From Amoebophrya sp. AT5.2 (Eukaryota > Sar > Dinophyceae > Syndiniales > Amoebophryaceae): a stretch of DNA of 13,834 nt. The position numbers and the translations under genes were made by a program. Of this stretch, positions 247 to 13,834 are shown piece after piece (position 1 is the stretch's first letter; the number at the start of each line of letters is the position of its first letter). The notes below the pieces were generated by a model. It made no database searches, was not told the origin of the DNA, and saw only the letters and a list, made by a program, of their open reading frames with translations. The stretch covers positions 1 through 13,834 of the forward strand of contig RXOD01005485.1 in assembly GCA_005223375.1 (NCBI GenBank), in the 5' to 3' direction.

Positions 247-3200
247 ATGACTGATCTGCAGCAGCTTATCGCGGAGCAGATGGCTGCTGATGCTTTGCTC
301 GCGGAACAGGCGGACAGCGACGAAGAAGGCAGTGGCGGCGCTGTCGAGGATGTTGGTGCTGTTGCTCCCAATGTTCCTCCACCCCCCAACGAGTTCGCCG
401 TGCCTCCGCTGGATGATGCAGCTGGTTTGGAAGCAGGGGTCGCGCCGCTGGGGAAGCAGGAGGAGCATGTCGCGAGCTTCTTCGACAATGTCAGAGCGTC
501 GACGAAGTGGGGCGTCCGGGTCTACAGCAAAATCGTGCACCTCATCGGGCGTTTCTACGTTGCTGTCGCGTCTTCTCTCAGCGGCTCTTGCATCCCGCAG
601 CACATCTGTTTTCGCATTGAGTCGGATGCAACTCCAGCAGGCCACCGCTTGCAAAAGGCGTGGGGCCTCTCCGTCGATCGCTCGGCCAAAGCGATGCTGA
701 TCGCGGCCAGCGTGTCTTGGCTTCTCCCCAGCGACGACGCGGACGACGACCGGGAGCTTGGTGCTACCTACAAAGCAGTGGGAGAGTGGGTGCATTTCGA
801 CATGCCGTCCGAGGTCCGCCTGCTATCTTCGGACAAGGCGGACAAGGATAGCGAGACGGAGATGGTTTTCGACACCCTCGCGAGCGTGAAGGGATTGGAA
901 GCAACATGCCGGGCAAGTGCAGGGCCTTTGGAGCTGCTGGTAGCCTTGGACTCAGCGTCGTCGAACATCAGCGCGCTGCACCTGTTCATGTCGTGGGCCG
1001 AGTCGCTGAGCCGGAACGTCGTGACGCGGCCCGTCCTCTGCTCCCTTCATGCTATGAACAAGACCATTAGTGACGCTGCGAAGCTCGCGTGCGAGTTGCT
1101 GGGGTACAATTTGAAAACGCTGGAGAAGCGCCTTTTTTTGACGTCTCGCTTGTATGGCAACCAGGCCAATGCCATCAATGAAGCAGTCGAGCAGGTCGCG
1201 GCGGATCTGGACCGGTTGAAGCCGGCGGACGTGGCGGCGCTGGATGGCGATGAAGTCGCTGTCTTCCAGCAGTTTCTCAGCATGTTCGAATTGCTCGGGA
1301 ACAAGAAGTGCGGCAACATCTTCCCAGCCGATGGCTGCGTCCATGTCTTTGACCCATCCCTCGGGTATGGCGGGGAGGATTTAGTGCTGGACCAAAAGAA
1401 GCTGCTGGAGGGGGGGACAACTGCGGTCCATGCCGTCTTCCACAAGCCCACGAATCCTTCACTGACGCGATTTGCAACCGCGTCACGCGCCGCCGCAGAA
1501 CAGGTCTTGATGTTCATCTTCCAGTCACGGGTAAAAAATTCAATTTGTTGGGAGAATTGGAAGAGGACTTGGGCCAGTCCGCACATCGGTGGGGGCGACC
1601 GATTCACATTCGAGGACAACGAGCGCGAGTGCCGGCTGGTGTGTCTTGTCGTCGCGTTGATCTCGTACGCCGGCAACAAGCTGCAGAAGAGAGTGATGAA
1701 GAAGGGCGCCGTCGCTTCGTGGAGCGACATGCGCGCGAAATTTCTAAAGGACCTCGAGACGGCGCAGGAGTTTGCGCGGACGCCTGCACTCTGGCGACTT
1801 TTAGGTGCTGGCGAGGAGGCTGCGGCGCCTTTCGTGTCGGCCGTCGAGCAGGGCCTCGCGGCACAGCTTGCAACGACGGATGACGGAGTTTTTTTCCGGT
1901 TTGCCTATGATCTGATGATGCAGGAGCTCTGCACCACCCCCCTCGCGCAGTGGAGATCCGTCGTGGGCGAGCACTCGCGACGGGTCGGCCCAATCATCAG
2001 GTACAACGACCCGACGGAGAAGACCGTCGTGCAACTCGCGAAGCAGCTGGACGGGCTGAGCGACTTCGCCGCGACGGCGCTCCTCCGCGGGTTCCTGGAG
2101 TCGTGGCTCGTGCAAAATCGGTCGACGCTCAAGGTCGAGCAGCTGCATGCCCGCTACCAGGCGCACCTACGCGGACTTTGCTGGCGAAGCGTTTCCGAGG
2201 CCTCGGCGCACCTCGTCCGGGTTTCGCTGCGAGCTGCACGACGCGCTGCGGACGCAGCGCAGTGGGTAGCTAGTGTCATTCCGAAGCCGCTCAAGAAACG
2301 CGGCATCGATATGTTTGTTAGTCTCGCGATCAAAGAGCACGGGCTGAGCGCGTGGAAGATGTGGCGGACAGACCTAACCCCCGTCGACCGCATCTTCTAC
2401 GAGCAGGCAGCGGAGGACCGATTCGCCCGCGACATGAATGACTTCCGTGACGCCGCGGCCGCTCTCGCTGCCTCGGAGACCGCGAACGAGATGCAGCGCA
2501 TCAACGGAGGCATCCGCGCAGAATTCTACGACGCGCTGGAGACCTTCGTGCGGGAAAGTTGGCAGGCAGTTTCGGTGGAAGCTGCCTGCGAAAGTAGAGC
2601 GAAGTACTGCGAACGCCGCGTCCCCACAATATCTCCCGGTAGCTGCCAGGCCCAGGGGGATACGTCAGTAGGTCTGCGTCGCTACATAGGTCGCATCGTG
2701 AAGGGTCTCGCACCCGGGAAGGACGGGGGGCTCGGGGAGATGGATATAGAGGGCGGCCTAGATGGGTTGGGGTGTGACGATGGGAACTACGACGTTGAGC
2801 ACGAAGCCCCACCGGGGCCCGAGTCCGATCTCAAAGCCGTCGCGCGGGTGCTTCTCGCTGAGTTCGTCGATGGCGACGTGCCGGAGGCGGCGGGAGCCGC
2901 AGGGGGGCTGTCGCGGGGAGTATTGGTTCTGGCAGTGGCGCTGAATCCGTTGAACTTCTGGGGCGTGGAGCTGCAGAAGGGCGCGGCGGGGGGTTGGGAG
3001 CTGCCAGAACGCTTTGCAGACATGAAAACAGTCGCAGGTCGGAGCCTGCAGCACATTGCCACCGCTCACGTCTTCTTGGCCAGCGTGACGGGCCGCGCGG
3101 TCAATCGGGTCGGCGGTGCGTTGCATCTCCACGCGAAGCCCAGCAAGCAGAAGGCAGAGCGAGAGCAGGCGGGAAAAACGATCACGATTGGGCATGGCGA

Positions 3201-4146
3201 GGCGGGGTTGAAAAAGATCCAGCACACCAAGGAGTACTTGGATTGCGTTCTCGAAGACGATCCGGAGAAGATTTGGGAGAAGCTGCAGGCCTTGCGCGCG
3301 CTGCGTGACGAGGAAGAACCCGAGACGAAGAAGCGAAAGATCGAAGGCGACAAAGACGCTGCGCCACCACGCCCGCACCTTGAAATTGTGCGCGAGGTTG
3401 TTGCTTCTGGAGGCGCCTGCGAGCAACCGCCCAACCGCGTGAAAGTCAAGGACCGGGTTGCGGTTTGCGTTCTGACGGACGAGGAAAAGAAAGACCTGGA
3501 GAAGCAGCGACAGGCGGAGAGGATGAGAGCGGCGGTGCCATCGTACAGAATCAAGTCGGGCGATTCGAAGTATACGGACACGATGATCGCAGTGGGGGCG
3601 AAAAAAAAGGACTCCAAAAAGCGCGTGGTCGAACCTTGTAGCAAAGTGGACGTCCGCAAATTCCTACCCGTGAAATGGCTTTTCAGCGTGTTGGGAAAAA
3701 AGAGCATCGAGTACAGCATCACCACCGTGGCGCCGGTGGAGCAGGTGCGAGCAGTCCTGAACCTCTGGGCCGCCCGACACGGCTTTATCATGTCGTGCCT
3801 CCGTGGCGAAGACGCGGCCACCCTTCACGACCGCGCTGAGCAACCGGACCAGGGCCAAGTGGTGGACACGCAGTGGCAAGTAGTTTTAGGTGCTTGGCAG
3901 CAGGCGAACAACCTGCAAATCTCCGACAAAACTCTGACGAAGAAAGTGGAAGAGCTGAGCACCATCCCGCCCGAAGTGCTCAATCGCCTGACTCCGTTGG
4001 CCGAGGGCGAGGAGGATCTGGCGGCGCCAGAGATGCTGGAGGACGAAGGCCTTGCTGCAGCACCCGCAGCGGCGCCGGCACAGCCACGACCGAAAGGGAA
4101 AAAAAAGAAGTTGGTGGTGGATGAGGAAGACGACCTTTTGGCCTAG
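247..4146 (+). CDS. Large intronless hypothetical protein (1299 aa), possible RNase H-fold (hAT-like) transposase
   Basis: This is a single open frame of 1299 codons from ATG to TAG, far longer than chance allows. The N-terminal 50 residues are acidic and low-complexity. A SDATP motif (D127), an ALDSASSN motif (D235) and a CSLHAMNK motif (C265, H268) follow in the order seen in hAT-type transposases: first catalytic Asp, second Asp in a D-x-S/A-S-N context, then CxxH about 30 residues later. I could not place a convincing catalytic Glu or a C-terminal dimerisation domain, so the family call is tentative. Later features are a basic cluster KKRKI near residue 1030, which could be a nuclear localisation signal, and a Lys-rich then acidic C-terminus (KGKKKK ... 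DEEDDLLA). The sequence before the ATG is T-rich with AG dinucleotides and could hold a splice or trans-splice acceptor. It could equally be an unrelated host gene. Confidence 0.8.
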   Translation: MTDLQQLIAEQMAADALLAEQADSDEEGSGGAVEDVGAVAPNVPPPPNEFAVPPLDDAAGLEAGVAPLGKQEEHVASFFDNVRASTKWGVRVYSKIVHLIGRFYVAVASSLSGSCIPQHICFRIESDATPAGHRLQKAWGLSVDRSAKAMLIAASVSWLLPSDDADDDRELGATYKAVGEWVHFDMPSEVRLLSSDKADKDSETEMVFDTLASVKGLEATCRASAGPLELLVALDSASSNISALHLFMSWAESLSRNVVTRPVLCSLHAMNKTISDAAKLACELLGYNLKTLEKRLFLTSRLYGNQANAINEAVEQVAADLDRLKPADVAALDGDEVAVFQQFLSMFELLGNKKCGNIFPADGCVHVFDPSLGYGGEDLVLDQKKLLEGGTTAVHAVFHKPTNPSLTRFATASRAAAEQVLMFIFQSRVKNSICWENWKRTWASPHIGGGDRFTFEDNERECRLVCLVVALISYAGNKLQKRVMKKGAVASWSDMRAKFLKDLETAQEFARTPALWRLLGAGEEAAAPFVSAVEQGLAAQLATTDDGVFFRFAYDLMMQELCTTPLAQWRSVVGEHSRRVGPIIRYNDPTEKTVVQLAKQLDGLSDFAATALLRGFLESWLVQNRSTLKVEQLHARYQAHLRGLCWRSVSEASAHLVRVSLRAARRAADAAQWVASVIPKPLKKRGIDMFVSLAIKEHGLSAWKMWRTDLTPVDRIFYEQAAEDRFARDMNDFRDAAAALAASETANEMQRINGGIRAEFYDALETFVRESWQAVSVEAACESRAKYCERRVPTISPGSCQAQGDTSVGLRRYIGRIVKGLAPGKDGGLGEMDIEGGLDGLGCDDGNYDVEHEAPPGPESDLKAVARVLLAEFVDGDVPEAAGAAGGLSRGVLVLAVALNPLNFWGVELQKGAAGGWELPERFADMKTVAGRSLQHIATAHVFLASVTGRAVNRVGGALHLHAKPSKQKAEREQAGKTITIGHGEAGLKKIQHTKEYLDCVLEDDPEKIWEKLQALRALRDEEEPETKKRKIEGDKDAAPPRPHLEIVREVVASGGACEQPPNRVKVKDRVAVCVLTDEEKKDLEKQRQAERMRAAVPSYRIKSGDSKYTDTMIAVGAKKKDSKKRVVEPCSKVDVRKFLPVKWLFSVLGKKSIEYSITTVAPVEQVRAVLNLWAARHGFIMSCLRGEDAATLHDRAEQPDQGQVVDTQWQVVLGAWQQANNLQISDKTLTKKVEELSTIPPEVLNRLTPLAEGEEDLAAPEMLEDEGLAAAPAAAPAQPRPKGKKKKLVVDEEDDLLA

Positions 4147-4262: not shown

Positions 4263-4299
4263 AACCCTCACGATTCATTACAAAACCTGGATTTTGTCT

Positions 4300-4376
4300 C
4301 AGACTTGGCACAGACTTGGCACAGACTTGGCACAGAGTTGGCACAAACTTGGCACATTTTTGGCACAGTGCGGGCA
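4300..4376. repeat. 11-bp tandem repeat, seven units
   Basis: The unit CAGACTTGGCA occurs in tandem. Units 1-3 are identical. Units 4-7 (CAGAGTTGGCA, CAAACTTGGCA, CATTTTTGGCA, CAGTGCGGGCA) diverge progressively. The period of 11 bp is close to one helical turn and is not a multiple of three, which argues against a protein repeat. The loss of identity towards the right end suggests recent duplication at the left edge. Confidence 0.9.
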
Positions 4377-4670
4377 CTTTTCAAGCAATCGACAAACATC
4401 GACTCCAGGTTTTCGCGGTTCGGTGGTGGGCGTGCGCAGTCGCTGGAAAGAAGGAGCTGCTCGGGGAGGACCCCTAGCGCCATGGGGGTGCTCAATTTCG
4501 ATCCTCTTCTGCGCATGGAACGACTGGTGGCAAAAGTGGCTCACCCATAGCAGATCATGGGGGCATGGCAAGCACCTCGGATCGCCCAGACGCTTGAGTT
4601 CCGACAGCGACAGGCTCACCGCTCTTGATCCGCTACGCACGTACATAATCACGGGCGCACAAGCGTCGAT

Positions 4671-4718
4671 GTAAGTAAGAAATGCCATGGCATTTCTTTT
4701 ATTTTCGCCCTCTCTCAG
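4671..4718 (+). other. Possible 48-bp mini-intron enclosing a palindrome
   Basis: The left end GTAAGTAAG matches the strong consensus splice donor. The right end is a pyrimidine tract ending CTCTCTCAG. Between them lies the perfect palindrome at 4677-4698. No exon with clear coding sequence flanks it, so this would be an intron of a 5' untranslated leader or of an untranslated RNA. The reading is inferred from splice-site appearance alone. Confidence 0.25.
4677..4698. repeat. 22-bp perfect palindrome (family copy 1)
   Basis: The 20-bp core is AGAAATGCCATGGCATTTCT, with one further A/T pair on each side; symmetry breaks at 4676/4699. It shares the framework AGAAATGNCATGNCATTTCT with the palindrome at 6602-6625, and the two differing positions have changed symmetrically so that both copies remain perfect palindromes. 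Confidence 0.9.
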
Positions 4719-5134: not shown

Positions 5135-7623
5135 ATGAAAAGAGCTCCGAAAAAATTGAAGCGGTCGGATTCCGCTGAGCTCACCACTGCGTGCACAGCT
5201 TTCCGGCGCAGCATGAAGCTCCTCCAGACGGGGCAGCCCCAGGCGGTCGAAGAGGCGATCGAGGCGCTGGTGGCCAAGCACCTGCTGAACGTCGACGCGG
5301 CCCAGCAAGACAAATCATCGGCGGAATACAAAATCATCAAAACCAGCGGGATCCCCGTCCAGAGCCGCGACAAAGAGCAGCAGAAGTTGATCTCCGCCGC
5401 TTGCAAAAGCGCCAACACGGTGTACGACCCCGCGACGGAAGCACTGCCGGACGAGATGAAGCGGTGCCAGTATGGGGGCACCACCATGCGCGGGTACTGC
5501 AACTACCTTTCGAAAAATACCAACGCCGTCCTGGAGAGTGCCGATACGAAGCTGTACAATGCGGTCCAGATGCGGGTTCTCAATGTCTGCAAGACATCGC
5601 AAGACCCGTCCAGCATCACCGGAATTCTGAGCAACATGTCGCTGAACAAAAAACCCCCGGAGAAGCACCACCGGCTGCTCAAGGCGTCGAAATACATCCT
5701 GCTGACAAATTTGTGGAACAACAAAGACCCGGCGGAAATCATGCTGGCGTAATATCGTTTTCATTTTTCCGGCGGCGCTTTTGATTTCAGAGTTTTCACG
5801 TTCCGATTGCTAGTGGCTTCGCCTCTCTCTCATCCATCGCATTCACTTCTATTTTTTTCTGATGCATTCGTTGATTCCCATGGCGGTGCGCATTCTGGAG
5901 GCAGTGTCTGCCGAAAAAAACGAACCCTAATCTCCGCACCAGGTACTCGTCCATCGGCAGCACGATTCTGGACGACCCCAACGACAAGTACCTGGTGTAT
6001 TCGGGCAAAGTGTACGCGGGCCAGGCAGGGGACGAAGGCCCTCCGGCCGCGGACAAAAAGTACCAGAAAGAATTCATGGAGAAAGTGGAGGAAAAAAAGG
6101 CCATGCTGGCCAAGGCGGCGCGCGGGATGGATGAGCAGAAGCTGCTGTTTCGGGTGGCGACTGGGGAGCAGGGGGCGACGCTGACCGATGACATCACGGT
6201 CCCGCACGGCGTCGCGAACATCGACTACATCATGCAGGCAATCATGGGCAATTTTGCGCCGACCTGGGAGATCGGGAAAGTGGTACTTAAATTTTTGGCC
6301 GTGCTCTGTGCGTTGTTCGTGTGCGATGAGGGGGAAACGCAACCGCGAAAGGAGGGCGCGCGACCATGTTCCCAAACGTTCGCTTTTGGTCAATTTTTTG
6401 CCCAAAAGTGAACGCTTGGGAACATGGTCGCGCGCGGTCCCTCCCCTTTTCGCCGTGGTCCGGTTGAGGAGTTTCCGCCCGTGTGAAGTGAAATCTTGCA
6501 CCTGTGCGCGCGTTTTTTAATGAATTTTCCATGGGGTCGCTTCAAATGCATAATCTAGCTAAAACCCGATAGCTGTACATCGCTGCGGCCGGTATTTTTT
6601 TCGAGAAATGACATGTCATTTCTCGCACAAGAACCTGCGAAAACGCGGCCCCACAGGTTGACGACTACGAGGTCGCTTGCGAGCGGCTGGTCGTGCTGTC
6701 GAACCTGGAGAACAAGCCCTTTCTCGCGCTGGCCGTGCAAGTCGCAATGCCTCTGATCGAGAAGACCATCGCGTTCGCGAAGGGGGAGTTCCCGACGAAG
6801 CCGCGGCCGCAGGGCTGGCCGAAGGGATGCCGGACGCAAACACTCTGCACCCGGTTCATGACCGCCGTGGAATCGATCCGGAAGGGGGGCCGCTCGCTCC
6901 TGCTGCAGAAGGTCGCAACCGCTTGTGCGACTACCAAAGAGGCGCGCACCGCAATCGAGCCGGAGGTGGATCGCGTCTTGAAAGGTTTCGACGCTGTCCC
7001 GTCCCAGATGATGGTGGAGGAACTAGGGAAAGACCAGCAGCGGTTTAAGGTGGCGTCGAGCGCACTCCAGTACTGCTCCGACCCGGAGCGGTATCGCCAG
7101 GCGCTGAAGTGCACGCTGCTGATCAAGGCCAAAGCGGTGAAGAGCGACGACTTTGTCCTTCTCCTCATGAAAACGCTGTGGACGATGGTGACCAAAGACA
7201 ACTTGAAGAAACTCGAAGAGAAGGAGGCGGCCCGTACTTATTTTCCTACTATAGCATCTCGCCCGGAGTTCTTTGTGGATCAACGCGCAGCCGTACGGGC
7301 ATGGGCTGGGGCGCGAGCTTGTCTATCGCCGAAGATCAATACTTTGTAGCGCATTGCGAAACTTCCATTCCCATGGCCATGCCCATCAGAAGGAATCTCG
7401 AAGCGCTGCGAGCTGTCTCGCGATGGATGGGTCTACTACATCAAAATCTTCAGGTGACTTGGCTGGCTTCGGCGAGGTGGCGAAAGAAGTGGCGAAGGAC
7501 ACGTTTTTGAATTCGGAGGCGATGCTGCAGATCATGAACCGGGAGGCGGTGCTCAAGCAACAGCTCAAGGAGGACCAAGTGGAGGACTTGGCTGCGCTGA
7601 TGGATGACGTGGACGACCTTTAA
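5135..7623 (+). CDS. Four-exon gene, hypothetical helical protein (566 aa)
   Basis: The proposed exons are 5135-5748, 5943-6282, 6657-7233 and 7454-7623, 1701 nt in total including TAA. Each junction is GT-AG and restores the frame: junction codons give ...IMLA|YSSIG..., ...EIGKV|VDDYE... and ...EAAR|DLAGF.... The start is the first ATG of the open frame and opens with a basic stretch (MKRAPKKLKR) that could be nuclear or nucleolar targeting. The rest looks largely alpha-helical, with a charged EKVEEKKAMLAKAARG segment near residue 250 and an acidic end (MDDVDDL) resembling the acidic end of the upstream large protein. I recognise no domain. It lies about 1 kb downstream of the large gene on the same strand. 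The start could move if further upstream exons exist. Donor choice for intron 2 is ambiguous by 3 nt (6280 or 6283). Confidence 0.75.
5749..5942 (+). other. Intron 1 of the four-exon gene
   Basis: The donor is GTAATAT and the acceptor is CACCAG before GTACTC. The intron is 194 bp and interrupts a codon after its second base. The upstream frame would otherwise stop immediately at TAA (5750-5752), and the downstream frame opens only after a stop-containing T-rich stretch, so splicing is the simplest explanation for continuity. Confidence 0.7.
6356..6435. mobile_element. MITE-like inverted repeat inside intron 2
   Basis: Two 34-bp arms (6356-6389 and 6402-6435) are reverse complements with two mismatches and enclose a 12-nt T-rich loop. 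The inner ends read CTTTTGG / CCAAAAG and the outer ends GCGCGCGACC / GGTCGCGCGC. Weaker complementarity continues outward on both sides (CGAAAGGAGG against CCTCCCCTTTTCG), suggesting an original fold-back element of about 120 bp. A non-autonomous fold-back or introner-type element is likely. No clean target-site duplication could be identified by eye. Confidence 0.65.
6602..6625. repeat. 24-bp perfect palindrome (family copy 2)
   Basis: The core AGAAATGACATGTCATTTCT is extended by GC and CG pairs at both ends; symmetry breaks at 6601/6626. It lies 31 bases before the intron 2 acceptor. It is the second member of the palindrome family found at 4677-4698. Confidence 0.9.
7234..7453 (+). other. 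Intron 3 of the four-exon gene
   Basis: The donor is GTACTTATT, nearly the same as intron 2, and the acceptor is ATCTTCAG before GTGACT. The intron is 220 bp and interrupts a codon after its first base. Exon 4 continues in a different frame from exon 3, and removal of exactly this segment joins the two. Confidence 0.7.
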
Positions 7624-8673
7624 GGGAGCTTTCGGCGGGGTTTTCTGGTGGGGGATGCGGGTTGAGGGGACGAATCAAAATTGATGACACAAGGCGGATT
7701 TACATGCAAAACAGCGACATGACTGAAACTTTTGGACCACATGGCGACAGACATCACGACGGACCTGCTGCACGGATCAAACTTTTCGTTCGGAATCAAA
7801 TCAGCAACGCAACCAGAAATGAAGGGCCGCCAGTGGTCTCAGTGGGATTCTGCGGGAAGTGGGCTAGGCGTTCGGCACTGACGTGTTGGTGGCGCCAAAC
7901 CTCCACGCACCGCGGAAAAAATTGGCAGTCGCACCCGTGCGGAGTATTTCACTTGTCCAGGCTGCGTGGCCAGATGAATGAAAGAAACGCCAAGCGATAT
8001 TCAGGGCCGATGATAAAGCGACTGGAGCCCCCAGCTCGCGCCCTCACGTGTGCACCACCCTCGACAGGGCCCCCCCTGTCCCACCGATGGGTCTTCGCGA
8101 CTTGTTGGGTTGAGGGTGGTGCGGCAATTTACCGCGGCGCCCCCACACGCTCGGCGGAGTCGGTGCTTCGGTTTGTGGAGGTGATTTGCGTGCAGCACTT
8201 TCGGGCCCGTGGGCGTGTTTGGATCAGTAGCGCCATCGACCCGCCCGGGGCTGATGGGCGCCGACCTTAGGCGCTGAACTCTGGGCCCAGCGTTTCGCCG
8301 GGGCCATACTTTGCGAGCACGGTGGCCGTTGTGCGCGGCAGTTGCACAGCATTCGCGCGGGCTTCGTGATTGTTGAAAAGCAGGGCGGGCTTCGCATCAA
8401 TTGCATGGGCTGCCATGCGTCTGAGGGTGTTCCGCAATTGCTGCAGCGCCGCACAGAATTGGAAAGCACCGCGGACGCCGCCAATTCGCGGCGAGGAAGC
8501 ATCAGCACCAAGAGGCTCGAGCCCTTTGGCATCATCATGGCAGTCACCAAACTTTTTGCTTTTCGTTTTGTTTCTTCTGGACCTAATTTGTCAGCTCAGA
8601 AGTCCACTGGGCGTCGATCTGGTCAATAAAATGCTGCTCGAGCCGATGGATGCAAGTCGAGACATCACGCTGC
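7624..8673. other. About 1 kb with no convincing gene
   Basis: The open frames here (for example 7662-8270 and 8342-8629, + strand) have random-looking composition, rich in Arg, Pro, Trp and Cys, and no recognisable domain. The stretch contains a nested inverted repeat at 8052-8122. It separates the intron-containing left half from the compact right half. Confidence 0.5.
8052..8122. repeat. Nested inverted repeat, possible multi-branched RNA fold
   Basis: An outer 11-bp perfect stem (GCACCACCCTC at 8052-8062 with GAGGGTGGTGC at 8112-8122) encloses an inner 6-bp perfect hairpin (GACAGG 8063-8068 with CCTGTC 8075-8080). A weaker GTC/GAC hairpin follows near 8091-8101. The arrangement could form a three-way junction. 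It does not match a tRNA or a hammerhead ribozyme core. Confidence 0.55.
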
Positions 8674-8691
8674 TGATCCTCAAGGGGATCA
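8674..8691 (+). promoter_or_regulatory. YYANGG-loop hairpin 1
   Basis: TGATCC-TCAAGG-GGATCA: six perfect base pairs and a six-base loop. It is the first of two hairpins in tandem before the 8737 gene. Confidence 0.8.
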
Positions 8692-8714
8692 ACTGGATGA
8701 AATGAAGGACCTCT

Positions 8715-8730
8715 GACTCTCAAGGGAGTC
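8715..8730 (+). promoter_or_regulatory. YYANGG-loop hairpin 2
   Basis: GACTC-TCAAGG-GAGTC: five perfect base pairs plus a possible outer T-G pair. The loop is identical to hairpin 1 but the stem differs. It ends 6 nt before the ATG of the 257-aa frame. Confidence 0.8.
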
Positions 8731-8736
8731 GCGTTG

Positions 8737-9507
8737 ATGAATGAAGTTTTATTTCTCAATTTTTATCTCAATCCAGTGGCCAGGATGCCAACTTCTATCA
8801 CTGCATCAGAACTTGGCGCTGCTTGTGAAGTGATTAGATTCGTAGCCGACCCGCTCAATATCTATCTGGGGAAAAATTTAGTTATTATCGAGGGGTCTAC
8901 TACAGTTTTTCGGTTCGTCCTCGAGTTTCAGGATTACGAAGAATTTCAGATTCGGAACTGCATCCTAGTACAAGCCACCGAAAGCTTAATCAGTGCTTGC
9001 CAATACTTGACTACTAGTACTTTCGGGCACGAACTGAGTAGGACACAAGCGCGTCTTATCGAAACGATCTTCGCGTTGTGCCACTACATCAATACGGATC
9101 TTCACAAGTCGTGCTACAACTTACTGGGCAGCACCCTCTTCCACTTCTGTAACTCGGCTGGGATCCAAGCACACCTTCACGGGGATCGGCTCGGTGAAGT
9201 CCTGAAAGATCACCTTCTAGCGCCTTTCAGCCACTTTGAAGAAAGCGACATTGTCAGCAGGCAGTGGACCAACTTGATCGATCGTACGTGGCGGGAGTTT
9301 GATAGTACCGCTTTTCTTCGTAACAGAACTGACAAGCCACTCCTGGGACGCACTGCTTTCCAGTGTGTGCGTGCTCTCTTCGTCGCTCTATCTCTCCCGC
9401 AAGGTCTAGCGCTGGGGTCCACTCATTATCCTTCCCACTTCGACGACGCGCTCGAACGCTTCAGACAAATAGTGTACATCCGTGGTGCCTACTTTCTAGA
9501 CGGATAA
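8737..9507 (+). CDS. Hypothetical helical protein (256-257 aa)
   Basis: This intronless frame runs from ATG (8737) to TAA. A second in-frame ATG at 8785 (MPTSITASELG) is an alternative start. The protein appears mostly alpha-helical with hydrophobic segments rich in Leu, Phe and Cys, such as the LIETIFALCHYINTDLHKSCYNLL region near residues 109-133. It has no signal peptide that I would trust and no domain that I recognise. It is preceded at once by two hairpins and followed 3 nt after its stop by another, so it behaves as one unit of the punctuated cluster. The codon mix is visibly less GC-rich than that of the left-half genes. A structural (capsid- or nucleoprotein-like) role is possible only by context. 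Confidence 0.65.
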   Translation: MNEVLFLNFYLNPVARMPTSITASELGAACEVIRFVADPLNIYLGKNLVIIEGSTTVFRFVLEFQDYEEFQIRNCILVQATESLISACQYLTTSTFGHELSRTQARLIETIFALCHYINTDLHKSCYNLLGSTLFHFCNSAGIQAHLHGDRLGEVLKDHLLAPFSHFEESDIVSRQWTNLIDRTWREFDSTAFLRNRTDKPLLGRTAFQCVRALFVALSLPQGLALGSTHYPSHFDDALERFRQIVYIRGAYFLDG

Positions 9508-9510
9508 CTG

Positions 9511-9528
9511 TGAGGCTCACGGGCGTCA
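9511..9528 (+). promoter_or_regulatory. YYANGG-loop hairpin 3
   Basis: TGAGGC-TCACGG-GCGTCA: six positions with a single G-G mismatch. It begins 3 nt after the stop codon of the 8737 gene and ends 17 nt before the ATG of the next. Confidence 0.7.
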
Positions 9529-9545
9529 AAGAGTTGAAAGGAAAA

Positions 9546-10373
9546 ATGGATGAGCAGGCGGTTGTTGTCCGGTACGCGGACGACGGGGCAGTGGTTGCCC
9601 CGGTCCCTCGCCCTGGCGGAGTCCGCGGTGCTGGTGGAGGTGGAAATCGCGCAGTCAACAATCCGAACCTGGGAGCTGCTGTTCCTGCTGCCCCGGGACA
9701 AGTCGCTGGAGGAGGTGACGATGACGGAGACGGGCCTCCGCCTCCGAGCGACCGTGTCGGACAAGTTGACCATCAACGCGACCTTCTGATCCGGACTATC
9801 TGGTACAACAACGAGGCAGAGTTCCTCGGCGTCCGCGGCGCCACGCAGGAAGTCGACGGACGCTACATGTTCCTGGGGGATTCCGTCCGTGTGTGGCGCA
9901 ATGGGCGCAACCCCGGTTTCCGCGCTAAGACAAGGCAGATTAAACTGTTGGCGCTGACCACCATGGAAATCTACGGGGACATCTCGGTGAGCGTCGAGAT
10001 CAGTGGACGCCTTGTTCGTGACTACACCTTGCGCTACGACGAAACGGGCGATGTGGTCGAGGAGGCTCGCCCGCAACGTGGTGAAGGACGTGCTGCAGCC
10101 GGTGGTGCGAACCGCGGCGTGCCGCTTGCCAACATGGCAGGTTTGGAGGACTTTCTGCTGGCTCTCAACAACACGACGCAGGGACTGCAACAGCAGGCGA
10201 TGCTGCTGAACGCGCATTGCCGACGCCTGGAGTCTGCGGTCAACCTCCAGCGCGAGGAGAACACGCGGTTGGAGGAGCAGGTGAACACGTTGGAGCAGAG
10301 CATCGGGGACTTCAACCACCAGACGGGACGCCTGGAGCAGACCGCATCCATGCTGGAAGAAGGGTGGGCCTAA
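9546..10373 (+). CDS. Hypothetical protein with C-terminal coiled coil (275 aa)
   Basis: The ATG at 9546 is chosen because it is the first one after the hairpin at 9511. The frame is open further upstream, but there it overlaps the previous gene. The first 75 residues are Gly/Ala/Pro-rich and probably disordered, ending in an acidic Gly stretch and PPPPSD. Residues about 80-180 look like a beta-rich globular domain (LIRTIWYNNEAEFLGV ... VRVWRNG ... ISVSVEISGRLVRDYTLRYDETG). After a second Gly/Arg linker, residues about 200-270 form a strong heptad-like coiled coil (LQREENTRLEEQVNTLEQSIGDFNHQTGRLEQ). This layout suggests an oligomeric structural protein. No family is recognised. A full-length antisense frame exists but is a composition shadow. 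Confidence 0.7.
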   Translation: MDEQAVVVRYADDGAVVAPVPRPGGVRGAGGGGNRAVNNPNLGAAVPAAPGQVAGGGDDDGDGPPPPSDRVGQVDHQRDLLIRTIWYNNEAEFLGVRGATQEVDGRYMFLGDSVRVWRNGRNPGFRAKTRQIKLLALTTMEIYGDISVSVEISGRLVRDYTLRYDETGDVVEEARPQRGEGRAAAGGANRGVPLANMAGLEDFLLALNNTTQGLQQQAMLLNAHCRRLESAVNLQREENTRLEEQVNTLEQSIGDFNHQTGRLEQTASMLEEGWA

Positions 10374-10442
10374 GAACAAATCGCTGGCTTTGGAAAAATG
10401 TTTTCGTGCTTGATTCGAAGATCGAAGCAGAAACATTATTTT

Positions 10443-10461
10443 TGTGACTGGCCGGGTCGCA
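10443..10461 (+). promoter_or_regulatory. Hairpin 4, seven-base loop variant
   Basis: TGTGAC-TGGCCGG-GTCGCA: six pairs including one T-G, with a seven-base loop that keeps the terminal GG. The stem is nearly that of hairpins 10 and 11. Confidence 0.6.
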
Positions 10462-10482
10462 CGAGTGAGAGTTAGTCTCAGT

Positions 10483-10498
10483 GTAGCTTACGGGCTGC
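10483..10498 (+). promoter_or_regulatory. YYANGG-loop hairpin 5
   Basis: GTAGC-TTACGG-GCTGC: five pairs including one T-G. The loop is the same as in hairpin 9 but the stem sequence is unrelated. Confidence 0.7.
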
Positions 10499-10580
10499 TT
10501 TTCAAAACAACCTTTCGAGAAAAAGAAGAAATTTAGATTTTTGAAAGAGCAAGAACTTCGCCGACGAATTGCGTTCCTCG

Positions 10581-10706
10581 ATGTTCAACTACAGGAAGTC
10601 GTCTTCTCCCTCAACTACGATTCGCAGTGTCACCAGCTGGGTCGAAGGCGATTATGACCTGTCTATTGAAGACTATATGGCAGGTGCTCCCATCAACCGC
10701 TTGTGA
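10581..10706 (+). CDS. Small ORF (41 aa), hypothetical
   Basis: An ATG-to-TGA frame encodes a Ser/Thr-rich start (MFNYRKSSSPSTTIR) followed by a short acidic segment (VEGDYDLSIEDYMAG). It is the first ATG after hairpins 4 and 5, and its stop is 10 nt before the ATG of the next small frame. That spacing fits the compact layout of the cluster. A frame of this length could arise by chance, so the case rests on context. Confidence 0.35.
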   Translation: MFNYRKSSSPSTTIRSVTSWVEGDYDLSIEDYMAGAPINRL

Positions 10707-10716
10707 GTGAGAAGGA

Positions 10717-10845
10717 ATGGCTCCGGAAGTTTCTCATGAAGAAGAGCCTCTCGTTCTCATGAAAAAGATAGAAAAGAGAATCAAAGAAGCGGTCTATGAT
10801 CAAGAGATTTTCTGTGTTGCTGACAAATCAAGCATGCATCAATGA
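10717..10845 (+). CDS. Small ORF (42 aa), hypothetical, overlapping the next start
   Basis: The frame encodes MAPEVSHEEEPLVLMKKIEK..., acidic then basic and helical, ending SSMHQ. Its TGA (10843-10845) overlaps the ATG (10842-10844) of the following 80-aa frame in the arrangement ATGA, a pattern typical of coupled termination and reinitiation. Chance occurrence is possible because the frame is short. Confidence 0.4.
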   Translation: MAPEVSHEEEPLVLMKKIEKRIKEAVYDQEIFCVADKSSMHQ

Positions 10846-11084
10846 CAATTGTGACTCACGGGTCTGCAGGTTTTCATGTAAAAGAAATGTCCTCTTCCCA
10901 CTGTGAAGACTTCTGGGAGGACGACCCAGTGTGGTTTAAAATTGAGCCATGGGAAGATGAACGTCCTGGCGTCGTCGTTGAAATCTTTGAGGGAGCGAAT
11001 TATTGTGTAATTGAAGACGTGCTCTTAGGAGCCCGATATGAAGTACACCGATTCTACCTCCGTCGCAGAAAAGTAGTCAAGTGA
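10842..11084 (+). CDS. Small protein, probable SH3-like fold (80 aa)
   Basis: The start overlaps the stop of the preceding small frame; an alternative ATG at 10887 gives MSSSHCED.... The segment VWFKIEPWEDERPGVVVEIFEGANYCVIEDVLLGARYEVHRFYLRRR, about residues 30-76, reads as a run of short beta strands with an RPG turn and ends in a basic tail. This resembles SH3-type barrels, including the C-terminal GPY/F region of retroelement integrases, where V-x-L/F-x, G-x-V, Y-x-V and a V-H-x-x-x-L element recur. That likeness is pattern reading, not an established homology. The stop codon lies inside the stem of hairpin 7. Confidence 0.6.
   Translation: MTIVTHGSAGFHVKEMSSSHCEDFWEDDPVWFKIEPWEDERPGVVVEIFEGANYCVIEDVLLGARYEVHRFYLRRRKVVK
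10853..10864 (+). promoter_or_regulatory. YYANGG-loop hairpin 6 (weak stem)
   Basis: GAC-TCACGG-GTC: only three perfect pairs, extendable if one T is bulged. It is part of the conserved primary motif TGTGACTCANGGGT shared with hairpins 10 and 11. It lies inside the start of the 80-aa frame and before the alternative ATG at 10887. Confidence 0.5.
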
Positions 11085-11099
11085 CTGCCACGGCAGTCA
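11082..11099 (+). promoter_or_regulatory. YYANGG-loop hairpin 7
   Basis: TGACTG-CCACGG-CAGTCA: six perfect pairs. The TGA that opens the stem is the stop codon of the 80-aa frame. Confidence 0.8.
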
Positions 11100-11120
11100 A
11101 GTTCTTGAGGAAAGCAGGAA

Positions 11121-11136
11121 CGTTTCAGAGGGAACG
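11121..11136 (+). promoter_or_regulatory. Hairpin 8, divergent loop
   Basis: CGTTT-CAGAGG-GAACG: five pairs including one T-G and a six-base loop ending GG, but the loop does not fit YYANGG. Included because it lies between hairpins 7 and 9 with the same geometry. Confidence 0.35.
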
Positions 11137-11143
11137 CATGTAA

Positions 11144-11161
11144 CGACCGTTACGGTGGTCG
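11144..11161 (+). promoter_or_regulatory. YYANGG-loop hairpin 9
   Basis: CGACCG-TTACGG-TGGTCG: six pairs including one G-T. Confidence 0.75.
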
Positions 11162-11168
11162 AAGGTAA

Positions 11169-11504
11169 ATCTCATTTCTTGTCAATGACGAAATCACGCC
11201 ATATGCTTGGCCGCAACGACCCCTCCGAGAAGGTGATCGAGTTCGCTTTCCAACGAGCGGCCATACGCTGAAGACGGGCATCTTTTTGGGGTACCAAAGT
11301 CAGTACTGGGCACAAGACAAGCCTCGTCGCTACGGAGCGGTGCAGGTAATCAGCGACCCAGTAAACTCTCCGGTTCTCGTTTTAGTCGAGTGGTGCCAAA
11401 TATACGAACCCCTCGAACCGGAACCGGAACCCGAGCCGTCTTCTCCGCAGCCGAGCAGCGCTGTTTCTTTCTGGTCGAATCCGAACATGACTCTCTCATC
11501 GTGA
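11169..11504 (+). CDS. ATG-less open frame, possible SH3-like segment (about 111 codons)
   Basis: The frame is open from just after a TAA at 11166 to the TGA at 11502-11504, yet has no ATG until near its end. Its translation looks protein-like: LREGDRVRFPTSGHTLKTGIFLGY followed by YWAQDKPRRYGAVQVISDPVNSPVLVLVEWCQIYEP, a run of probable beta strands, then a PEPEPEPEP repeat (about 11410-11436). Its stop overlaps the ATG of the Gag-like gene in the arrangement TGATG. Initiation could be non-AUG or aided by the upstream hairpins, or the segment could be an exon or a decayed gene. The strand pattern loosely echoes the 80-aa protein. Confidence 0.4.
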   Translation: MSFLVNDEITPYAWPQRPLREGDRVRFPTSGHTLKTGIFLGYQSQYWAQDKPRRYGAVQVISDPVNSPVLVLVEWCQIYEPLEPEPEPEPSSPQPSSAVSFWSNPNMTLSS

Positions 11505-13519
11505 TGAATGATACGCCGGACCGACCGCCGCGAAAGAGAAGTAAAGGCGGAGACTCACCAAGTAGCAACATAATAATTGCATCTTCACGGAGTTTCGATA
11601 CTAAGCTCGCTGCTGAGCGTGCTCGAGTAGACGCCACTGGCGACATTCCACGACTAGTCGTAGAAATGGAAGATCGAGCAGACGACGAGGGGGTGCCTAG
11701 TGCCGAAGTGGAGGCAACCCCAGGCGAGGTGGAGCTCAAACAGAACCAGATCGCGTGCTGGTACTGCGGAGAAACAGGACACATGCTGCGCGATTGCGAG
11801 TTGCGACGGCAGCGACTGGGCGATGTCGCAGGTGGAAGCAGTCGAGCCTGCCGCACCTGCCGCTCCAGTGGTCCTCCCCTCCCGAGTGCTGATGTAACGG
11901 TAGACGACCGAGTGCAGGGAGAAGAGGAAGAGCACTGGTGGATGGTGCCTGTTGATGATCTTCCACTCGATTTTGCTGAGGGTGAAGCAGCGGAGAACGA
12001 AATCAGCTTCAGCGAGCTCGCGCAAGGAATAGTCGCGTCAGATGATTCTGGAATCGAGCTCGAGTCTCCGGAATTCAACACCCCGCGTGAGGACGAGCAA
12101 GTCCAGACTGCTGATAGTGGAGAGGCTCACGTCGAAGAAGTGCCTCCTCCTCCTCCAGTGGAACCGGAGGAGGTCGAGGTATCTGAAGCCTCAAGTGCAA
12201 GCGCGACTGTCGTGAGGACCGGAAATTCGGCAGGGATAAACGCGGCGCATCGAGGAAAGTTCATCGAGCACTCACCCGGAGTCCGCTCTGGCTTAGCAGC
12301 TTCATTTCCTTCAGGCCAGCTGTCCGGCACCACGCAATACTTCCCGACGCCACCGGGTCTGATGCCAAATGCAGAAGTCGGGACGTTGCCGATGCCAGCA
12401 GGACTTGAACATCTGCTGCTGCCACCCCTGACCGAGCAGGAACTGGGACTGATGCCGCAGTTGGGACTTCATCATTCCCCCATGCTGTTCGACATCCCTC
12501 AAGCCTTCATTCAAGGACCCGGTCCGGCATTGATGCCTCAGCCGGAAGGTTTAAGTCTGGACCTAAACTTGAACTGCGTGCCGTGGGAAGCCCCACTGCC
12601 GTGCGGGGAACAGCTCAAGCATTTCTCCTTTTTGGCAGACGGAGAGGGAATGTCTCGGGGCCAGCCGGTGTCAGTTAAACACCTAATGACCGACTCGTTC
12701 ATCCATCACCGGAAGTGCCAGACCGTCTTTCCCGGATCGGTGGCTCACGTCGAAGAAATCCTCCTTCTCTTGTCCAACCCCGAGAAAGAGTATGAAGAAA
12801 TCGACGTGGAGCTGACGACGTTTTGGCGGGCGTTCGAAAAGACCAAGTTCGAGAATTGCGACTGCCGGCGCCGCTCTCAAGAATGCGGACGCTGCACTCT
12901 GCGGGTGGCACTCCGCGAACTCGAGAGTCGAGAACCAGACTTCATGCTGGGGAAGTTGGGGCCCTGTGCTTTTGGTGGAGCTGAAGTTCTTGCGCATTTC
13001 GACTCGCGCGAACCCTTCAAGAATTTGCCATCGGTGGGGACTCTGTCCATTGAAGAACGGATCTGCGGACAGCCGTACCGCGACCGCTACGCGAGAATGC
13101 GGAATCGCATTAAAGTAGACCGCGGGAAGGTAGCCAAGAACGGCAGGCAGCAGAAGCAGTGGATGAAAATCCCACCAGCATGCAGCGATGCGGCGACGAG
13201 AAGGGACGGAGAAATTACAGATCAGATGACTGTAAATGAAAAGGGTCGCTGGGCGTATGTTGGGAAACAGGTCCCTGGCTTTGGGAAAAAGGGGACCCCC
13301 GACTCCATTCGAACCCCGGATTCGATGCTGAGCAGATCCTGGCCAACGCCGGATGTTATCCGCGACGCGCGGGAGGAGACGCCTTATCTCGAACACCAAA
13401 AAGGGAAAGGGGGTAAGGACGATGAGTGGAACTGGCATCACGAGGCGTGGTACTGGGACAGGAAAGGAAAAACTCCTGGCGGAAAGAACTGGGATTGGAA
13501 AGGGAAGAAGGGGAAGTAG
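11504..13519 (+). CDS. Gag-like protein with CCHC zinc knuckle (671 aa)
   Basis: The ATG at 11504 is the first in a frame that is open from before 11390; it overlaps the upstream TGA. Residues 85-98 are a textbook retroviral-type zinc knuckle, C-x2-C-x4-H-x4-C (CWYCGETGHMLRDC), which binds nucleic acid in Gag nucleocapsid proteins. A Pro/Glu-rich disordered region (PPPPPVEPEE) and a Leu/Pro/Met-rich region follow. A conserved-looking globular segment (about residues 395-520) contains a second Cys cluster, CDCRRRSQECGRC, at about 452-464. The tail is rich in Lys, Gly and Trp (WNWHHEAWYWDRKGK ... WKGKKGK), typical of nucleic-acid binding. No protease, reverse transcriptase or integrase is fused, so any polymerase gene would lie beyond the window. 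A cellular CCHC RNA-binding protein is the main alternative. Confidence 0.75.
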   Translation: MNDTPDRPPRKRSKGGDSPSSNIIIASSRSFDTKLAAERARVDATGDIPRLVVEMEDRADDEGVPSAEVEATPGEVELKQNQIACWYCGETGHMLRDCELRRQRLGDVAGGSSRACRTCRSSGPPLPSADVTVDDRVQGEEEEHWWMVPVDDLPLDFAEGEAAENEISFSELAQGIVASDDSGIELESPEFNTPREDEQVQTADSGEAHVEEVPPPPPVEPEEVEVSEASSASATVVRTGNSAGINAAHRGKFIEHSPGVRSGLAASFPSGQLSGTTQYFPTPPGLMPNAEVGTLPMPAGLEHLLLPPLTEQELGLMPQLGLHHSPMLFDIPQAFIQGPGPALMPQPEGLSLDLNLNCVPWEAPLPCGEQLKHFSFLADGEGMSRGQPVSVKHLMTDSFIHHRKCQTVFPGSVAHVEEILLLLSNPEKEYEEIDVELTTFWRAFEKTKFENCDCRRRSQECGRCTLRVALRELESREPDFMLGKLGPCAFGGAEVLAHFDSREPFKNLPSVGTLSIEERICGQPYRDRYARMRNRIKVDRGKVAKNGRQQKQWMKIPPACSDAATRRDGEITDQMTVNEKGRWAYVGKQVPGFGKKGTPDSIRTPDSMLSRSWPTPDVIRDAREETPYLEHQKGKGGKDDEWNWHHEAWYWDRKGKTPGGKNWDWKGKKGK

Positions 13520-13706
13520 TGCCATTGAGACAAGAGCAGAAAAAGGGGTATTACGAAACACACATATATCCCAAATCGACGACTGATCCAAATATACAAC
13601 AAGACTAGTACTACCGGAATCTACGCGCCTGCTCGTCTTTTACTCACTACTGCTACTTATCCGACCATACTATCGTCGCTCCCACTCTTCCTCCCAAACC
13701 AGGCTT

Positions 13707-13722
13707 GTGACTCAAGGGTCGC
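13707..13722 (+). promoter_or_regulatory. YYANGG-loop hairpin 10
   Basis: GTGAC-TCAAGG-GTCGC: five pairs including one T-G. It is the first of two hairpins about 35 bp apart, repeating the tandem layout seen at 8674/8715. Confidence 0.75.
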
Positions 13723-13739
13723 TTCGACAAAGAAACACT

Positions 13740-13759
13740 GTGTGACTCATGGGTTGCAC
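13740..13759 (+). promoter_or_regulatory. YYANGG-loop hairpin 11
   Basis: GTGTGAC-TCATGG-GTTGCAC: seven pairs including two wobble pairs. Relative to hairpin 10, a G-C pair has become G-T, so pairing is kept. Confidence 0.75.
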
Positions 13760-13834
13760 CTAAACGGAGCCTCCTTTTGGATAGAATGAAAGGCAAGACA
13801 AAAAGGGGGCGTGTCAATCTTCGTGCGCTGGCTT

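Follow-up and report, generated by a model that had tools for sequence, protein, structure and literature searches.

Retroviral packaging signals usually lie near the 5' end, and the hairpins involved, such as those with GACG tetraloops in murine leukaemia virus, are few in number and are bound by the nucleocapsid; small RNA phages have dispersed packaging signals. Sireviruses, which are Ty1/copia elements of plants, carry element-specific palindromes, the repeated motifs (RMs), in the linker before an ENV-like gene and in the long terminal repeat (LTR), with 66.5–100% identity within an element. In the part of that report considered here, each element is represented by one consensus word, nearly all words have a CGG-CCG core, and the 3' LTR holds 127 motifs versus 79 in the linker (PMC2829016). 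In sponge mitochondrial DNA, families of similar repetitive hairpin-forming elements occupy intergenic regions and are described, in the portion of the source used, as invading (PMC2800124). The DNA analysed here, called the window, is the 13,834-nucleotide (nt) contig RXOD01005485.1 (C1689; GenBank assembly GCA_005223375.1) of the dinoflagellate Amoebophrya sp. AT5.2. Its second part (8600-13834) is most likely the 3' part of a Ty1/copia-type dinoflagellate LTR retroelement and contains nine plus-strand hairpins with a common loop and variable, paired stems, while a distantly related element on another contig, C2142, carries an array with a different loop. Among titles and abstract openings of open-licence literature on hairpins, tetraloops and dinoflagellate copia elements, nothing describing such arrays was found.

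A sequence-only reading of the window had described a family of hairpins with a six-base YYANGG loop. All nine copies are present at the positions it gave, with the loops TCAAGG (three copies), TCACGG (two), TTACGG (two), CCACGG and TCATGG, as are the two variant hairpins that it listed at 10443 (GTGAC-TGGCCGG-GTCGC) and 11121 (CGTTTC-AGAG-GGAACG). The stems are uninterrupted and 5–7 bp long, with G-U pairs counted, in seven of the nine copies. The weak ones are hairpins 3 and 5 (numbered as in Table 1), with YYANGG words at 9517 and 10856; for hairpin 3 a different local pairing is favoured by RNAfold. The loop is conserved as claimed, but the description as a YANG tetraloop with a closing Y-G pair suits it better than that as a six-base loop: shifted one base inward, YYANGG becomes Y-(YANG)-G, with the tetraloops CAAG, CACG, UACG and CAUG. 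Seven YANG tetraloops with stems of at least 6 bp occur on the plus strand of 8600-13834.

The array exceeds chance expectation. On the plus strand of 8600-13834, 7 of the 16 YYANGG words are flanked by stems of at least 5 bp, whereas 500 dinucleotide shuffles average 0.12 such words and never exceed 2, and none of the seven words on the minus strand is so flanked. The nine non-coding YYANGG words of the plus strand are the nine hairpins, while the seven coding words have flanking complementarity of 0–2 bp. With the open reading frames (ORFs) as drawn here, all nine loops thus fall within the 832 non-coding nt of 5235, a count that drops to eight of nine if ORF C starts at 10842 rather than 10887, which would make hairpin 5 coding. 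In the first 8600 nt stem-flanked words are at background (1 of 25 on the plus strand and 1 of 21 on the minus strand), and the sole site there, at 4685, is the self-complementary AAGAAATGCCATGGCATTTCTT, which is counted from both strands and is distinct from the hairpin family. When the nine copies are aligned, 88.9% of the stem cells are paired versus 58% in shuffled alignments, and the covariation score is reached by none of 500 shuffles. Sliding the alignment lowers pairing to 30–46%, although these controls flatter it because the stem structure was derived from the same nine sequences, which biases the result in its favour.

Genome searches covered the 50.7-Mb assembly of 2759 contigs; the shortest of the first 20 contigs sampled measures 10,174 bases. 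In 20 random 10-kb stretches of other contigs the YYANGG hairpins were at background, so the family is local. A genome-wide host family of hairpins was considered and rejected on the same random loci, and also because a 16-mer pattern allowing up to two mismatches gave 28 matches, three of them the window copies, against 42 for the reversed control. No Rfam family matched the window at gathering score. Two outcomes had been named in advance as speaking against the family, namely a similar number of stem-flanked loops in shuffled sequence, which was not observed, and genome-wide hits devoid of bias; the latter does not apply as worded, since the family belongs to a single element rather than to the genome at large.

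Independent evidence comes from contig C2142. By its features this contig carries a Ty1/copia LTR retroelement, with gag and pol frames followed by a homologue of ORF B, a homologue of ORF E and a terminal repeat. The RVT_2 domain is found over its cut-off (2.5e-11), rve below it (2.6e-4; 21.7 bits against 32.6) and zf-CCHC just below it (20.4 bits against 20.8), and the terminal repeats, one of them at the contig start, are 305 bp long and 97.7% identical. A YCCG tetraloop was first spotted by eye in this element, and a test that assumes no loop sequence was applied afterwards. In that test TCCG accounts for 12 of the 176 plus-strand tetraloop hairpins with 4-bp stems. No single tetraloop is counted more than 8 times in any of 200 shuffles of C2142, or more than 6 times in 20 other 10-kb loci when both strands are considered; CCCG, which ranks second with 7, would fail by itself. 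Taken together, the plus strand holds 19 YCCG hairpins and the minus strand a single one, with a mean of 2.4 and a maximum of 7 in 300 plus-strand shuffles. Their stems are 97.4% paired versus 67.9% in shuffled alignments, and the covariation score is again reached by none of 500 shuffles; of the 25 sites listed, this alignment comprises 19, including two whose stems have no more than 3 bp, and omits three weak gag-pol sites and three repeated ORF E sites.

The 19 YCCG hairpins lie mainly in the leader, the spacers and the 3' untranslated region (UTR), with three in the leader before gag, one at the end of pol, two in the spacer between pol and ORF B, one in ORF B, four in the spacer between ORF B and ORF E, four in ORF E, three in the 3' UTR and one in the LTR. 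Twelve of the 19 lie within 1502 non-coding bases of 11,567, where the gag start (806), the ORF E start (9459) and the limits of the leader and LTR follow our own reading and the stretch between gag and pol is counted as coding; starting ORF E at 9348 would make the copy at 9433 coding. The loops of the two elements are nearly exclusive, as C2142 has no plus-strand YYANGG hairpin and 8600-13834 has a single YCCG hairpin. The commonest hairpin word of C2142, GACCTCCGGGTC, has 14 occurrences genome-wide, 4 of which are in C2142 itself, compared with 16 for its reversed control. Within the ORF E homologue (locus L027, 9636-9954) a YCCG hairpin word is repeated in frame as GCCGTCCGCGGCC and variants, producing a repeated PSAA in the protein.

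The assignment of 8600-13834 to the 3' part of a retroelement is made because ORFs B and E are homologous to the ORFs behind the pol gene of C2142, and they occur in the same order. ORF B shares 29% identity over 150 columns with its C2142 counterpart (pairwise E 5e-11) and retrieves C2142 in the genome search with 32% identity (E 1.1e-6), while ORF E is 30–31% identical to its counterpart (E 4.1e-16) and contains a zf-CCHC domain over the Pfam cut-off (7.4e-05; the longer frame 11390-13519 was searched). What the sequence-only reading had called a compact gene cluster is thus best regarded as the 3' part of a retroelement and not as a virus or an array of gene cassettes. A phage or viral origin is likewise unsupported in the databases tried, where ORF A and a piece of the C2142 pol had no relatives in viral contigs and ORF E had no match in phages. 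The reverse transcriptase and integrase that mark a Ty1/copia element were not found in 8600-13834: the C-terminal 713 amino acids (aa) of the C2142 pol have 16 matches in the genome, none of them in C1689, and a tblastx comparison of the window with the entire contig C2142 gave no match in pol. The region occurs once in the genome, and the element appears to be interrupted near 7600-8600. The locus is possibly truncated, non-autonomous or domesticated, or possibly reflects a contig join. Its last 24 nt or so, the putative start of a 3' LTR, are not found again in the genome even when three mismatches are allowed, and the LTR is unproven.

Table 1. Hairpins, reading frames and putative terminal features of 8600-13834, in order of position
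Feature	Positions	Strand	Pairing or basis
Hairpin 1, TGATCC-TCAAGG-GGATCA, upstream of ORF A	8674..8691	+	6 Watson-Crick pairs
Hairpin 2, TGACTC-TCAAGG-GAGTCG, ORF A ATG 5 nt downstream	8714..8731	+	5 Watson-Crick pairs and 1 U-G
ORF A, 256 aa	8737..9507	+	Relative not found
Hairpin 3 (weak), GAGGC-TCACGG-GCGTC, within the 38 nt separating ORFs A and B	9512..9527	+	5-bp stem with one G-G mismatch
ORF B, 275 aa, C-terminal coiled coil	9546..10373	+	Homologue behind copia pol on C2142
Variant hairpin, TGTGACT-GGCCG-GGTCGCA, in the spacer between ORF B and a small ORF	10443..10461	+	7 pairs, 5-nt loop
Hairpin 4, GTAGC-TTACGG-GCTGC	10483..10498	+	5 pairs, one of them U-G
Small ORFs between ORFs B and C	10581-10706; 10717-10845	+	ORF reading
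Hairpin 5 (weak), GAC-TCACGG-GTC, upstream of the ORF C ATG at 10887	10853..10864	+	3 pairs only
ORF C, in-frame upstream ATG at 10842	10887..11084	+	ORF reading
Hairpin 6, TGACTG-CCACGG-CAGTCA, first three bases are the ORF C stop codon	11082..11099	+	6 Watson-Crick pairs
Variant hairpin, CGTTTC-AGAG-GGAACG	11121..11136	+	Sequence
Hairpin 7, CGACCG-TTACGG-TGGTCG, upstream of ORF D	11144..11161	+	6 pairs, one of them G-U
ORF D, 111 codons open, no ATG at head, starts 7 nt past hairpin 7	11169..11504	+	ORF reading
ORF E, 671 aa, CCHC zinc knuckle near N-terminus	11504..13519	+	Pfam and C2142 homology
Hairpin 8, GTGAC-TCAAGG-GTCGC, 3' UTR	13707..13722	+	5 pairs, one of them U-G
Hairpin 9, GTGTGAC-TCATGG-GTTGCAC, 3' UTR	13740..13759	+	7 pairs, two of them G-U
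Possible polypurine tract and start of 3' LTR, ended by contig end	13800..13834	+	AAAAAGGGGG-CGTGTC resembles C2142 AAGGGGG-TGTGTG, by eye

The start of ORF C at 10887 and the ATG-less frame of ORF D are our own reading of the sequence. ORF A has no relatives in viral contigs or in a large protein search, and otherwise only matches itself; its predicted structure has no usable fold (mean predicted local distance difference test (pLDDT) score 48.3), and that of ORF B (mean 56.5) is confident in the C-terminal helix only. For the ORF E frame no relative was found among the best 7994 candidates scored in the large protein search, and its profile, with the best 7995 candidates, retrieved one protein, P0001, which is a gene model of the same sequence. 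This model (EukProt g17728.t1, 372 aa) matches ORF E but omits several stretches, including the zinc knuckle, as if they were introns. The genome as a whole has nine DVNP matches over the family cut-off, and none of 14 control genomes was positive, which identifies the host as a dinoflagellate.

The first half of the window is host-like and contains two similar perfect palindromes, AAGAAATGCCATGGCATTTCTT at 4677-4698 and CGAGAAATGACATGTCATTTCTCG at 6602-6625, as well as a tandem array at 4294-4377 with an 11-bp unit TTGGCACAGAC and its variants. An uninterrupted ORF of 1299 aa (247-4146) has no Pfam match over the cut-off. An inverted repeat at 6351-6440, with 43-nt arms that are 88% complementary and 4 nt apart, recalls the introner elements of Amoebophrya, from which introner-type introns are known according to the part of the source considered (PMC7789003). 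Introns of this type were considered in view of the long inverted repeats in this half, and no hairpin-flanked intron was seen in the sequence.

The distribution of the hairpin family was also inspected in other contigs bearing related elements. The pol gene matched 13 contigs besides C2142, of which pieces of four were examined, and ORF E matched two further ones (C1519 and C78), of which one was examined. No hairpin family was present in the examined pieces of these five contigs (C756, C1519, C271, C728 and C2428): hairpins were at background in the reverse transcriptase fragments of C271 (locus L031) and C728 (L032) and in the first 8,000 bases of C2428, which carries another copia element.

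The fixed orientation of the loop, together with the compensated stems, points to the sense RNA, or to its single-stranded DNA copy, as the molecule in which the hairpins matter. The earlier claim that selection acts on plus-strand single-strand structure is supported, and the covarying family of C2142 supports it independently. The positions of the copies further constrain their role. Cutting or end signals are hard to reconcile with the leader and ORF E copies, and start signals with those past the last ORF, while all of these copies fit recognition of the loop by a protein, whatever the stem. Among the four roles that the sequence-only reading had offered, the protein-bound packaging or control hairpin has the best positional fit; the processing site and the 3' end signal are disfavoured by the leader and ORF E copies of C2142, and translation start signals by the copies past the last ORF.

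The explanation favoured here, with a confidence that stops somewhat short of even, combines the 3' part of a retroelement, its YANG array and its YCCG relative, and regards the loop as a candidate site of an element-encoded RNA-binding protein. In sequence, the sense RNA bears hairpins with a fixed YANG tetraloop on stems that are free but paired, and the RNA of the distant relative bears an equivalent array with a YCCG tetraloop. On any stem, the tetraloop would serve as the recognition site of an RNA-binding protein encoded by the element, for which a CCHC protein, either Gag or ORF E, is the prime candidate. Through many copies spread across the non-coding genomic RNA, this protein could pick out the RNA of its own element and compact it for packaging, it might also regulate the downstream ORFs, and the loop would have diverged jointly with the protein. 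The two arrays suggest that each element tags its RNA with a hairpin code peculiar to it. The broader proposition, that a dinoflagellate copia group uses a lineage-specific tetraloop 'password' (YANG, YCCG) on a free stem together with a co-evolving protein, is possible but doubtful.

Several observations weigh against this explanation. The array lies behind the expected place of pol and not near the 5' end, where packaging signals of retroviruses are usually located. The known arrays number just two, ORFs A, B and E lack any characterised relative, and the decayed ORF E pieces on C756 and C1519 show no array, except for one GACCTCCGGGCC word noticed by eye in C756. At the level of structure, the spacers of the window have predicted folding energies that are no more than mildly low (z from +0.24 to -2.1) and are not decisive, and RNAfold joins hairpins 8 and 9 to one another instead of folding them singly. 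Changes on both sides of a stem occur in five of six pairs among the nine copies, which is equalled by 46 of 500 shuffles; in C2142 the pairs changed on both sides are equalled by 34 of 500 shuffles and the further pair types by 63 of 500. An excess of G-U pairs over A-C mismatches is seen in the nine chosen copies (6 to 0), but it provides no evidence, since the figures are 8 to 5 for all 16 words and 32 to 11 for YCCGG words on the minus strand of C2142. On that minus strand the same sites read CGGA, with 13 hairpins, because the stems are mostly Watson-Crick; the orientation in C2142 consequently rests on the loop letters, and the other strand could fold too. Finally, the test that assumes no loop sequence fails to single out the window (highest count 3, for CAAG; p 0.54), because its loops are split over CAAG, CACG, TACG and CATG. 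This last result, and the fact that the loop motif was picked after looking, speak for a chance or low-complexity artefact. Such an origin is nevertheless extremely improbable given how the window compares with shuffles, with its minus strand and with random loci, and given the positive result of the same test for C2142.

Control of expression is the strongest rival, although it too is on the unlikely side. In this view, the ORFs share one long RNA, and the hairpins set them apart or start them through re-initiation, internal ribosome entry, cleavage or spliced-leader trans-splicing, so that each ORF is expressed. The arrangement of the window is in keeping with this, as at least one copy is found in every inter-ORF gap of at least 38 nt (with the ORFs as drawn), hairpin 2 ends 5 nt upstream of the ORF A ATG, the stop codon of ORF C is within hairpin 6, and the ATG-less ORF D opens 7 nt past hairpin 7. 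Stop and start codons also overlap at 10842 (ATGA) and at 11504 (TGATG), where the ORF E ATG and the ORF D stop share one base. However, the distance from a hairpin to the next ATG ranges from 5 nt to 82 nt, and copies past the last ORF in both elements, like those inside ORF E and the three in the leader of C2142, would be useless or harmful as start or cleavage signals. Much less probable are DNA-level regulatory palindromes bound by a transcription factor, by analogy with the Sirevirus RMs. The location and element-specificity of the arrays resemble those of the RMs, one C2142 copy lies in the LTR, and the C2142 stems are mostly Watson-Crick, but a double-stranded palindrome has no need of one-way asymmetric loops (YCCG 19 to 1, YYANGG 7 to 0), and the constant loop and variable stem found here differ from the single consensus word per element in the Sirevirus table considered (PMC2829016). 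Slightly less probable again is a parasitic origin, in which the hairpins would spread inside the element with no function for it, as proposed by analogy with sponge mitochondrial genomes. The many similar copies in non-coding gaps and the identical copies of C2142, four of them GACCTCCGGGTC, would be explained in this way, and the sponge hairpins provide a precedent (PMC2800124, as far as considered). The single loop orientation, the compensated stem changes and the same habit with another loop in the relative all speak against it.

If the broader 'password' proposition is correct, a retrotransposon would contain a distributed packaging and expression code, nearer to the signals of small RNA phages than to the single psi site of retroviruses. 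If the favoured explanation is right, elements with the same ORFs and different loops would offer a comparative handle on how retroelements discriminate their own RNA from that of the host. The arrays would also bear on how the multiple ORFs of a dinoflagellate element may be expressed from a single RNA; evidence for polycistronic mRNA is reported to be lacking in dinoflagellates, in the part of the source considered (PMC7789003).

The arrays share features with several known systems. Like retroviral packaging hairpins, they are short, have a conserved loop and belong, as read from the sequence, to the genomic RNA of an element encoding a CCHC protein; unlike these, they are numerous, with 9 in the window and 19 in C2142, and lie mostly behind pol. 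In their letters the window loops resemble the UNCG/YNMG class of tetraloops: CACG, UACG and CAAG fit YNMG and CAUG does not, and the C(UCCG)G of 10 of the 19 C2142 rows corresponds to UNCG letter for letter. However, eight of the nine window loops would be closed by U-G and not by C-G, and the name of the class denotes the fold of a loop rather than a system of genes. Compared with the sponge mitochondrial hairpins, as described in the part of the source considered, the arrays differ in their single loop orientation, their location inside a retroelement and their covarying stems (PMC2800124). By analogy, the closest known kind is the Sirevirus RM. In both cases a Ty1/copia element holds numerous short, element-specific inverted repeats, among other places in the linker that separates pol from an additional 3' ORF, a position occupied in C2142 by the copies at 7955, 7990 and 9103-9433. 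Unlike the RMs as described in the sections considered (PMC2829016), the present hairpins have a fixed tetraloop in one orientation on covarying stems, occur also in the leader, spacers and 3' UTR, and belong to a dinoflagellate rather than a plant; the CGG-CCG core is not shared, as the stems vary with compensation around a constant loop and the window copies have no CCG...CGG core. If the explanation favoured here is correct, this partial likeness invites a look at the repeated palindromes of Sireviruses at the level of RNA.

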